The translations under genes and the position numbers were made by a program. Of a DNA stretch of 64,000 nucleotides, positions 14,790 to 56,218 are shown one piece after another. The notes below the pieces were generated by a model. It saw nothing but the letters and a program-made list of their open reading frames with translations. It made no database searches and had not been told where the DNA came from. How positions within the stretch are numbered: position 1 is the stretch's first letter; the number at the start of each line of letters is the position of its first letter. The DNA lies in NCBI GenBank assembly GCA_949751835.1, contig CATKHK010000035.1, forward strand, positions 365,147 through 429,146, read 5' to 3'. This DNA is from Blepharisma japonicum (taxonomy: Eukaryota; Ciliophora; Heterotrichea; Heterotrichida; Blepharismidae).

Positions 14790-15935
14790 ATGGAAAGCAC
14801 TTACCTTGGACTTTTATGAGCTTTTTTGCTATTAATTTTAATAGGCTTTTATCTGATATGTGCCTTGTATATACATCATAAAAAATACTTTCAAGAAATC
14901 TTCGCATGATCATTACCTAATTTATATTTGACGATGTGTGCAAGCTGTATAGAGATACTTGGCTCAATTTCATTAGGTTTTGTCGACAAACTCGGATATT
15001 ATTATGAAATGAAAGCAGTATTAATTGTATTCATTGCTTATGAATTAGCTCATCATGCGCATTTTATATCAAACGTCATGAGAATTTATAGGCTGAATGT
15101 ACTGAACAAAATAAGAAATGGCGAATATGAGAGCCATGGAGAATATTTGAGAAGGAAGGTTAGGCTTGACCATAAATGAAGCGCCAAGTTCATAATAATT
15201 TACACAATTTTTTTTTCCTCGATTTTTGTGGGATTTGCCCTTTATCAATTGATTTCAAATGATAAAGGAGATATGGACATGATTTATAATATTCTCTTTG
15301 ATTTTTTGATATTTTTTGAAGAAACCACTTATTTTATTTTTCTATTAAAAATCCGCAAAGTGAAGTATTGCTCTAATTTGAAATATGAGTTGTATATGAT
15401 AATTTTTATATGAGCATTAGGTTTATTAGCACCATTCACAACAAACTTAGAATATCATTTTTATATCGTGCCTTCTAGAAATATCATTTTATTAGTAGGG
15501 ATTTTGATATCACTTGGAAGGCATTCTAGAATGAGTACAATTTTGCCATTGCAAACTTTAGAAGACCCAAGAATTCTCATCGAAGATTTTACTGCTTATA
15601 AGTGCTTTAAGGCTTTTACCCAAAATTCAAACAATAAAACATGAGAGTATTATTTGGATTTTCTTATCAATATTAGCTTGTTTAAGCTAAATCCTTCAAA
15701 TGAAAAAGGGCAAGAGATTTATAATGATTTTTTACGAAATAATGATATTATTCCAGAGTTTGTATCAAGAAACGCTGAAAGACACCTTGTAAAATACCAA
15801 AAAGATATAACAAGTAGTCTATTTAATGAAATAGAATTTTTTATTTTAAAGCATTTAGAAAAAACTATTTATCCAGAGTTTAAAAATTCGCCTGAATACC
15901 AATCACTTTTAGAAGAAACAAACTCCCTTTATTAA
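14790..15935 (+). CDS. Multi-pass membrane protein with C-terminal RGS domain (copy A)
   Basis: The frame from ATG 14790 to TAA 15935 encodes 381 residues and crosses several TGA codons, all read as Trp. The first ~250 residues contain multiple hydrophobic helices (GLLWAFLLLILIGFYLICAL first), compatible with a seven-helix-like membrane module. From about residue 261 an RGS domain follows: it begins RILIEDFTAYKCFKAF, contains YYLDFLINISLFKL, and ends YPEFKNSPEYQSLLEE, the typical RGS C-terminal helix pattern. RGS domains accelerate GTP hydrolysis by G-alpha subunits. Membrane proteins that combine 7TM and RGS modules are known, plant RGS1 being one. The next gene is a paralogue only 26 bp downstream. 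The RGS assignment is firm; the helix count and receptor role are inferred. Confidence 0.86.
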
Positions 15936-15961: not shown

Positions 15962-17116
15962 ATGACAGGAACATGGCTCTACCTTGTATGATTAAGCATC
16001 TTTATTAGTATTTTTGGGATATATAGTTTTTTCTTGTGATATATATTCCATCGCAGAGACTTTCAAGAAATATATTCCAGATCTGCAGGAATTTTGCTTT
16101 TCTCCATAATAGTCAATGGCACTGAAAATATCGGTTCAATTTCTTTAGGATTTATTGAGATTTTAGGCTTGTACTATAACTTAAAGGTCTGCACCTGGAT
16201 TTTTGTTATTTATGAAATCTCACATAATGCTTACTTCATATCAAATGTGCTGAGAATGTATAGGCTGGTTTTGTTAAACAGGATTAGGAATGGCAATTAC
16301 TGTAGCTATTTAGACTACTTAAATAGTAAAAAAAGACTCGGAAATCAGTGGAATATAAAAATTATTTTAGCTTATTCGCTGCCTATTTCAGCATTTTATA
16401 TAGCATTTGCTTTGTATCAAATGGTAACAAAAACTGGCGGAACACTGAATACGATTTTTGATATATCTTGGAACTTTTTGATTCTTTTTGAAGATGCCTG
16501 CTATTTGATATTTTTATTAAAAATCAGGAAAATCCCTTATTACTGTAATTTAAAAATCGAGCTGTATCTAATTTTAGTGATCTGGTCAATGGGATTAACT
16601 GCTCCTTTTGTAAGTCCTCTATTTTTCCACCTTTATATCATTCCTCCTAAAAACCTTTGTATGGTAATTAACACCTTTTATTTCTTACAGAGAAGCACAA
16701 AACGACTTAGCGTTGTTCCTTTAGAAGTCCTTAAATCCCCAAGAGTTTTACTAGAAGACCAGCTAGCTTTTAACTATTTTGTCTCCTTCGCAAAAAAATC
16801 AAAAAATAAGCATTGGGAGTATTATTTGAAAATCCTTGTTGAAATCCATCTCTTTAAGCTTGATCCAAACCCAGAAAAAGCTTATGATATATATAGAAAA
16901 TTTTTAGCAGGGAAAAATATCTTCTCTGAAAGCATGACTTTGGATTTGTCTAATCAAAGTCTTTGTGGGGATATGAATCCTGATATAAGTGCTTCAATGT
17001 TTAATGATGTTGAAAACAATATTTTCAGACAGTTTAATGAAACCGTTTATCCTGAGTTTCAAAAATCGCAAGAGTATCAAGAATTGCTCAGAGAATCAAC
17101 CCATGCAATTTATTAA
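15962..17116 (+). CDS. Multi-pass membrane protein with C-terminal RGS domain (copy B)
   Basis: I place the start at ATG 15962, giving 384 residues ending in TAA; two TGA codons near the start (in VWLSIF and LWYIFH) read as Trp. It matches copy A along its length: FQEI, GSISLGF, the ISNVLRMYRL segment versus ISNVMRIYRL, the FLLKIRK helix end, and the LEDP/LEDQ entry to the RGS domain. The RGS domain spans about residues 261-380 and ends YPEFQKSQEYQELLRES. Together the copies form a tandem duplication that has diverged considerably. The predicted role is the same: a membrane-bound GTPase-accelerating protein for G-alpha. Convergent neighbour: the CFAP97-like gene, 83 bp away. Confidence 0.87.
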
Positions 17117-54140: not shown

Positions 54141-54160
54141 ATTAACTAGTTATAGTAAAT

Positions 54161-56197
54161 ATGAACATTACGCAGTACAAATTTTATGTTTACTCTACCT
54201 TTGGGGTCATTTCTTTTATAACTGGATTGTTAGTTCTAGTTGCTTATGCAAAAATTAAAGGATTGAGAAAACACCCAGGGATGATTATTTTCTGACAATG
54301 CTTTATGCAGCATGTGATTGACTTGCAACTTACCTATAGCGCTGTTCATTATTGAATTACTGGAGAAAGCCTCTCAGACTATACTTGTGAAATAGCAGGG
54401 ATGTTTACTATCTGCTGCTTTTTTATAAGCTGAAATTATAGCTTGAGTTTGAGCATTGAGGTACTCTTAACAATAAATAGTCCTACAAATAGGAATTACA
54501 AAAAAAGATCGCCACTGTACCATATCACAAGCTGCTTTTTTGGATTTTTAATTATCCTTTTGGTGGGGCTTTCAAACTCAGCAGGAAAATCTGCAAATGA
54601 AGCCTGCTTTATAAAATCAGGTACCTGAGCGGCGTAATTTTTATATAGGAAATTGATGTTTATCCCCTTTATAATTTATTATCCTTTTAGCATCATAGGA
54701 GTTGTTTTTTCTTTTATTTACATTAGACAGTCTCGATCAGAAACCTTGAAAACCCTTCTTGGGAAGCATGCACTGTTTTTACAAGTTTACTGTTTATTTT
54801 GGATACCTATGAGTTTAAGCACGATAATTCAAGATGACCAAGGCGTCACAGCACCTTGGCTAAGTTACATATCCTTGACGTTTTCAAGCATTTCTGGCTT
54901 AGCAATAAACTCAGTAAGGCTATCAGACCCTGCTTTTGTCCGTTGGATAAGAAAAAGACTTGGCCTCCGAAATCCAAAAATTTTTAAAAACACAATTACA
55001 TCCATTTTAAACGAAGCCACAAGTGAAATTGGGACATCCCTTGCTGATGTTAGAATTTCCAGTGTCTATGAATCCTCTTACACCCATATGTTCCAGTCAG
55101 TTTACGCTGACGCCGTTTTGACTTCACTTGTGTCAGTCTGTTTGATTTTTTTGAAAAGCTCTCAGGAAAAGGATTATATGCAGGAGGAAAAAGATTTTAT
55201 GTTTTGAAGGTAATTTCAATGAAGTGTTGATTTTTATAAGCAAGTCTATGAGTTCGAAATGACACAAGAAGATTTATCGAAAATTGAACTAGATGGCACA
55301 TTAATTAATTACTGTAAAAAATATATAGTCATGAGATTTCATTGCAAAATCGTGGAATATGCTCCACTGGTGTTCAGACATTTGCGAAGTTTAGAAGGAA
55401 TAAATGATCATGATATGATTTCATCGTTTCATCCAGTATTCAATATTTCTATGATCAAGAAAAATACAGGAAACAAAGGTGGGAGAAGTTCAGCGTTTTT
55501 TTATTTTACACATGACAAAAAATATATAATAAAAACTATTACTAGAGAAGAAAAGAAAGTTCTGCTAGAAGTTTTATTGAAAAATTATCACCATCATATA
55601 GAAAATCACCCAAATTCTATCATAGCAAGATTATTAGGGTTTTTTTCATTGAAATTTCAAAACAGCCATCTTCAATTAATCATTATGCAAAATATTTTTC
55701 CACCTATGAATCTAAAGGCAATTTTCGATATGAAAGGAAGCAAACTTGACAGAGAATCCATCCATGGCCAGCAGGCTGACTCATTAGCTGACCTCACTAA
55801 TGATCTCATTTATAAAGATCTTGATTTTTTAAGAACTCAGAAAAATCTATATGTAAGTTACAGTGATAGCTTAGCTTTGAAGCAAAAGATATATGAAGAT
55901 TCAAAGTTATTTTCAAAGCTAAATATTATGGACTACTCCTTGTTACTTGGAATTGGTACCCCAACTCCTAGTAATAGTAAGCATTACTTAAAATCTTCAG
56001 ACAAAGATAAAGAAAATGCATACATTGTTGGGATCATTGATTATTTGCAAACTTACAACAGCCTTAAGAAAATCGAGACGATCAGCAAAAGTATTATCAA
56101 GCCAAACGTAGATAAAGAGGATATTTCATCAATCAACAGTGAAGCGTATAGTGCTAGATTCTTAAAATTTGTAAACTCAATTATTTCATCTGATTAA
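54161..56197 (+). CDS. GPCR-phosphatidylinositol phosphate kinase fusion (GPCR-PIPK, RpkA type), two 15-nt introns
   Basis: Exons 54161-54633, 54649-55209 and 55225-56197 join into 668 residues; several TGA codons read as Trp; the stop is TAA. The N-terminal ~300 residues form a seven-helix module (GVISFITGLLVLVAYAKI, KHPGMIIFWQCFMQHVIDL, PLYHITSCFFGFLIILLVG and more) resembling cAMP-receptor/secretin-like GPCRs. The C-terminal half is a PIP kinase: FNISMIKKNTGNKGGRSSAF, the catalytic-lobe Lys in YIIKTI, FDMKGSKLDRE, IMDYSLLLGIG, YIVGIIDYLQTYNSLKK and the terminal YSARFLKFV. GPCR-PIPK proteins are known in Dictyostelium (RpkA) and oomycetes. The receptor would couple a ligand directly to phosphoinositide production. 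If the second intron were not spliced, the product would be two separate proteins; the kinase would then start at ATG 55259. Confidence 0.85.
54634..54648 (+). other. 15-nt intron (phase 2)
   Basis: The sequence GTAATTTTTATATAG has GTAA at the 5' end, TAG at the 3' end and A at position 10, the usual branch-point position of heterotrich 15-nt introns. It contains an in-frame TAA that otherwise breaks the receptor between TWAA and KLMFIPF. Removing 15 nt keeps the frame. Confidence 0.85.
55210..55224 (+). other. 15-nt intron (phase 2), AAG acceptor
   Basis: The sequence GTAATTTCAATGAAG carries an in-frame TAA. Its removal joins the receptor C-terminus (EEKDFMFW) to the kinase region (SVDFYKQVYEFEMTQED) in frame. 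It matches the 15-nt length, GTAA start and A at position 10, but ends AAG rather than TAG, so it is less certain than the first. Confidence 0.68.
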
Positions 56198-56218
56198 TAA
56201 TGTAAATAAAATAAATAG

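Follow-up and report, generated by a model that had tools for sequence, protein, structure and literature searches.

The gene at positions 54161-56197 (+) encodes, in one frame, a receptor-like membrane domain and a PIP kinase (PIPK) domain. The seven-helix (7TM) region lies N-terminal to the PIPK region in a single protein once introns are removed, and the GPCR-PIPK (RpkA-like) architecture proposed in an earlier note on this DNA is borne out. We consider it highly probable that this is one protein-coding gene whose 15-nt introns are constitutively removed, yielding a membrane receptor-kinase of about 663 residues. The fusion, the intron positions and the catalytic motifs are read directly from the sequence (Table 1); the product is 663 amino acids with three introns out, and 668 should the third 15-mer be part of the coding sequence.

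The window, the whole 64,000-nucleotide stretch of Blepharisma japonicum DNA that was analysed, is the final 64 kb of contig C35 (365147-429146) in an assembly of 45.2 Mb and 224 contigs; GC content is 34.7%. TGA encodes tryptophan in conserved proteins of the source genome, and the upstream gene for the V-ATPase 116-kDa subunit (695 bits against Pfam V_ATPase_I) contains five in-frame TGA codons. For Blepharisma stoltei, a genome of 41 Mbp with 66% AT is described, in which most introns measure 15-16 bp and UGA is read as tryptophan (PMC9942806). Tiny intergenic gaps separate the gene from its neighbours on the + strand (54141-54160, 20 bases; 56198-56218, 21 bases), and the product of the downstream neighbour, of 547 aa, matches no Pfam family above the cut-off. 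A DNA search found the gene once at 100%, with the next match at 67% and no near-identical copy.

Table 1. Features of the GPCR-PIPK gene, in positions of the window
Feature	Position	Strand	Content and evidence
Exon 1	54161..54633	+	Start codon, TM1-TM4, most of extracellular loop 2; code-4 translation, hydropathy, GPCR profile match
Intron 1, GTAATTTTTATATAG	54634..54648	+	Phase 2; in-frame TAA; same column and phase in paralogue L017
Exon 2	54649..55209	+	TM5-TM7, cytoplasmic segment, putative pre-kinase hydrophobic helix (residues 308-326)
Intron 2, GTAATTTCAATGAAG	55210..55224	+	Phase 2; in-frame TAA at donor; AAG acceptor; counterparts in L015, L017, L019
Exon 3	55225..55313	+	PIPK N-terminal region begins (DFYKQVYEFEM...SKIELDG)
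Probable intron 3, GTAAAAAATATATAG	55314..55328	+	Phase 1; stop-free, length divisible by three; site and phase kept in 6/6 group members
Exon 4	55329..56197	+	PIPK catalytic domain (IIKT, DMKGS, MDYSL, IID, KKxExxxK); Pfam, PDB PIPK structures, motif table; stop TAA 56195-56197

When translated with TGA as tryptophan, the span contains two in-frame TAA stops. The earlier note had joined receptor and kinase by removing 55210-55224 alone; this does delete the stop between the domains, but one intron is insufficient, and the one-intron model was rejected because the TAA at 54635-54637 persists. Removal of both 54634-54648 and 55210-55224 leaves 668 codons and no stop, and we regard these as two well-supported 15-nt introns. 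When long open frames were joined over GT...AG gaps, 13 joins had length 15 (two of which start GTC and are probably chance), and no other length between 9 and 40 gave more than six. With joins required to span a stop, to start GTA and to carry an A six from the end, 15 nt gave 18 in 215 kb, whereas 12, 18 and 21 nt gave 2, 2 and 3. The length-15 signal was absent from a raw-DNA count of GT...AG spacings.

By sequence, all three introns of the gene, the probable third included, fit a pattern of 15 nt, GT...AG and an A at position 10, which they share with the introns described for the heterotrichs Stentor (PMC9505925) and Blepharisma (PMC9942806). In Stentor 90.9% of introns are reported to belong to a 15-nt class with a branch-point A at position 10, and the commonest intron is identical to intron 1 letter for letter (PMC9505925). 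The present gene differs in that intron 2 ends in AAG and intron 3 lacks a stop codon. Among the 18 stop-spanning candidates the acceptors were 13 TAG, 3 CAG, 1 GAG and 1 AAG, the last being intron 2.

A PIP5K profile search of the assembly returned 41 matches, which were grouped into 23 gene places, and a protein search likewise gave 23. Among the translations listed, sorted into classes by reading (a Pfam scan covered three 7TM-PIPKs), these comprise eleven modelled 7TM-PIPKs, five proteins with EF-hand-like N-termini and seven PIKfyve-like proteins. The five with an EF-hand-like N-terminal half (L009-L013, read from translations) are suggestive of calcium-regulated PIP kinases. Two 7TM-PIPKs, L024 (C38 ~103 kb) and L028 (C40 ~214 kb), have EYSL for DYSL and a shortened KKxE loop, and in L028 the lysine of IIK is replaced by R; both look like pseudokinases.

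The eleven 7TM-PIPK gene models were hand-built and then aligned. Five of them are single uninterrupted ORFs, so that the fusion is independent of any guess about splicing; in a tree these intron-free genes group together (100/100), while L019 has a long branch and an unsure placement. The frames of the family require 11 introns, ten ending in TAG or CAG, with intron 2 of the present gene the sole AAG. Intron 1 is common to this gene and L017, and a further intron position is common to L024 and L028. Intron 2 falls in the same alignment column and phase as its three counterparts, whose acceptors are CAG, CAG and TAG, and because these paralogues share its position it looks like an old, ordinary intron. 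It also appears to mark the margin of the region of kinase homology rather than to lie in a free linker, since the paralogue alignment has a shared hydrophobic helix before it and a DFY-type stretch after it. Similarity to PIPK structures starts at about residue 362, some 17 residues past intron 2.

These comparisons bear on whether the locus instead holds two separate, unspliced genes, a receptor ending at 55213 and a PIPK starting from the ATG at 55259. An ORF caller does split the two there, and a spacing of 45 bases would be compatible, as it exceeds the gaps of 20 and 21 bases on either side of this gene. However, receptor and kinase form one uninterrupted ORF in five paralogues and have a 15-nt intron at this place in a further three, the paralogue alignment runs through DFYKQVYEFE, upstream of that ATG, and the receptor half would still require intron 1. 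We consider two genes hardly credible.

The 15-mer at 55314-55328 was initially read as conserved coding sequence, and this reading was reversed after an intron was found in paralogue L017, in which the 15-mer at that site must be removed because it has an internal TAA. In the present gene the 15-mer is very probably an intron. A scan of the eleven models for stop-free 15-mers of the form GTA-N6-A-N2-[CT]AG gave 7 matches against 1.8 expected from codon shuffles. Five of the 7 share one site in phase 1 (this gene, L015, L019, L024 and L028), and the models of the five genes of the other 7TM-PIPK group contain no intron-like stop-free 15-mer.

A coding 15-mer (CKKYI), which would leave two introns and 668 codons, must be weighed against this. 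It is open in frame, its removal barely shifts the phmmer match to PIPK structures (best 122.6 to 122.1 bits; for PI5P4K2A chain 8c8c, 118.2 to 121.5 bits), and stop-free 15-mers of this kind are no commoner than chance across 101 long ORFs (17 found, 16.1 expected). An ancestral coding block could also have turned into an intron in L017 alone. Set against these points, the consensus recurs at one site and phase in all six members of the group, with the TAA inside it in L017, and once the 15-mer is removed the six proteins align there without gaps, save for one extra residue earlier in L019 and L024. Moreover, intron base 2 (T) and base 14 (A), both third codon positions, are identical in this gene, L015, L024 and L028, although third positions are close to saturated, with 53 invariant columns among 625 in these four genes and 27 among 603 in five genes with L019 included one codon out of register. 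Taken together, we consider a coding block unlikely. Two further stop-free consensus 15-mers, at codons 66 and 315 of the spliced L019 model, are possibly hidden introns.

A receptor profile built from nine of the eleven paralogues matched 51 distinct PDB sequences at E<=10, every one of which carries the molecule name of a GPCR; the best E was 1.6e-6 and seven matches fell below 0.01. Against two same-genome proteins of the Dicty_CAR type (PF05462 matches), hhalign gave 95.6% over 247 columns at 16% identity. These matches indicate that the 7TM domain is homologous to GPCRs, and the N-terminal receptor would belong to the cAMP-receptor/class-A-like GPCR superfamily. The Pfam scan of three 7TM-PIPK proteins yielded no 7TM family match. 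Hydropathy shows six peaks before residue 250 and a further peak at 308-326; TM2 of this protein falls below the hydropathy cut-off, and the count of seven helices leans on the profile match too. The 308-326 peak is read as a cytoplasmic hydrophobic helix before the kinase. A GPCR disulphide is expected between a position just before TM3 and loop 2. C76 and C149, which occupy these places, are invariant in the nine aligned receptors. An AlphaFold model built from the single sequence of the receptor half, in which intron 1 was translated with TAA as Q, was unusable (pLDDT 42.7).

The kinase half scores 203 bits against Pfam PIP5K (E 6e-60), and the 22 PDB sequences that a kinase profile from seven of the eleven halves matched at E<=0.001 are without exception PIP kinases. 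The catalytic motifs IIKT, DMKGS, MDYSL, IID and KKIETISK are kept; DMKGS replaces DLKGS (a conservative L to M change) and the glycine-rich loop is GGRSSAFF. On these motifs the kinase is predicted to be active. The specificity loop carries KKxExxxK, a type linked to PtdInsP 5-kinases (PMC3823935), and a PtdInsP 5-kinase specificity would be expected.

This arrangement has known relatives. Ciliate proteins of this kind, TtPIPK2a-c in Tetrahymena and 15 in Paramecium, were published in 2013 under the name of type IV transmembrane PIPKs (PMC3823935), and by that published description, rather than by alignment, they share with the present gene the 7TM-then-PIPK order, IIK, MDYSL, IID and the presence of several paralogues; six helices are predicted for TtPIPK2b and 2c. 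The gene described here differs in its use of TGA for tryptophan and in its 15-nt introns. Oomycete GPCR-PIPKs and Dictyostelium RpkA also share the domain order and catalytic motifs (PMC5784254). All eleven proteins here lack the strict form of the LR-x9-GI motif, which most GPCR-PIPKs, though not all, carry between the 7TM and PIPK regions. This absence is not decisive against membership of the GPCR-PIPK family; the motif is reported as absent from 9 of 60 non-oomycete GPCR-PIPK models, mostly from ciliates (PMC5784254). LRSLEGI was considered as the GPCR-PIPK LRxGI signature and rejected, as this motif occurs in PIPKs generally (LRERFGI in PI5P4K2B) and LR and GI are nine residues apart in the published signature. 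The fused gene is real, an ordinary member of a known family whose architecture is not new for ciliates. Among the papers listed in a narrow literature search on GPCR-PIPKs in ciliates, including Blepharisma with phosphatidylinositol or GPCR, none dealt with Blepharisma members.

The earlier note had further suggested that splicing could act as a switch between a fused and a kinase-less receptor. Were intron 2 retained, translation would halt from the intron's second base, giving a 345-aa receptor ending DFMFWR-stop. Regulated partial retention, producing both this protein and the fused receptor-kinase, would be in keeping with the placement of the TAA directly after the donor-spanning codon and with a receptor and pre-kinase helix that would remain whole. 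The AAG acceptor, compared with CAG, CAG and TAG in the counterparts, is the one feature that keeps the switch idea alive. However, three paralogues share the position with ordinary acceptors, and in five fused paralogues no intron is detectable at this site. Any stop-containing intron, if retained, truncates the frame, so the outcome is not special, and a retained message could as well be degraded as yield a functional isoform. The switch finds no support here, and we consider it improbable. A more elaborate proposal, in which the three introns, each a multiple of three in length, form a splice-coded output selector, is highly improbable: the weak acceptor of intron 2 would set the share of fused and kinase-less protein, and intron 3 (one site in six paralogues, stop-free in five) would toggle five residues. 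If intron 3 were retained, these residues would be added at the entry of the kinase domain.

The earlier note had also held that the receptor is coupled without a G protein. An exon-by-exon search of the genome with PF00503 (G-alpha) gave 19 small-GTPase-like matches, none of which extends beyond positions 159-264 of the 333 in the profile, the part that small GTPases cover. The sole PF00503 match above cut-off, a place on C42, was rejected as a G-alpha and reads as adjacent Arf-like frames (by reading). From this exon-by-exon search of a possibly incomplete assembly, G-alpha is likely absent from the genome. Some GPCR-PIPK organisms are reported to have no or very few G-alpha subunits (PMC5784254), and this seems to be so here. 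The proposal of G-protein-independent coupling is thus consistent with the genome as far as PF00503 is concerned, but RGS domains are present, with 8 matches to the RGS profile. Two genes in tandem at 14790-15935 and 15962-17116 (+), of 381 and 384 aa, each have an RGS domain at the C-terminus (Pfam RGS 1.7e-8 and 1.1e-8) and, ahead of it, stretches that look hydrophobic by eye, in a genome in which no clear G-alpha was found.

We favour a model in which the pre-mRNA would constitutively lose introns 1 and 2, which are well supported, and very likely also intron 3, each of 15 nt. The product would consist, in order, of the seven-helix receptor, a short cytoplasmic segment with a hydrophobic helix and an apparently active PIP kinase. 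A ligand would move the receptor helices and so shift the attached kinase at the membrane or alter its dimer state, which would raise local PI(4,5)P2 with no G-protein step.

These results extend the GPCR-PIPK family to a heterotrich ciliate. They also point to a hazard for annotation: where introns are 15 nt long, a stop-free one can mimic a conserved five-residue block and evade ORF-based gene models. Moreover, with eleven 7TM-PIPKs and no clear G-alpha found, this organism could serve for tests of receptor coupling that is independent of G proteins.
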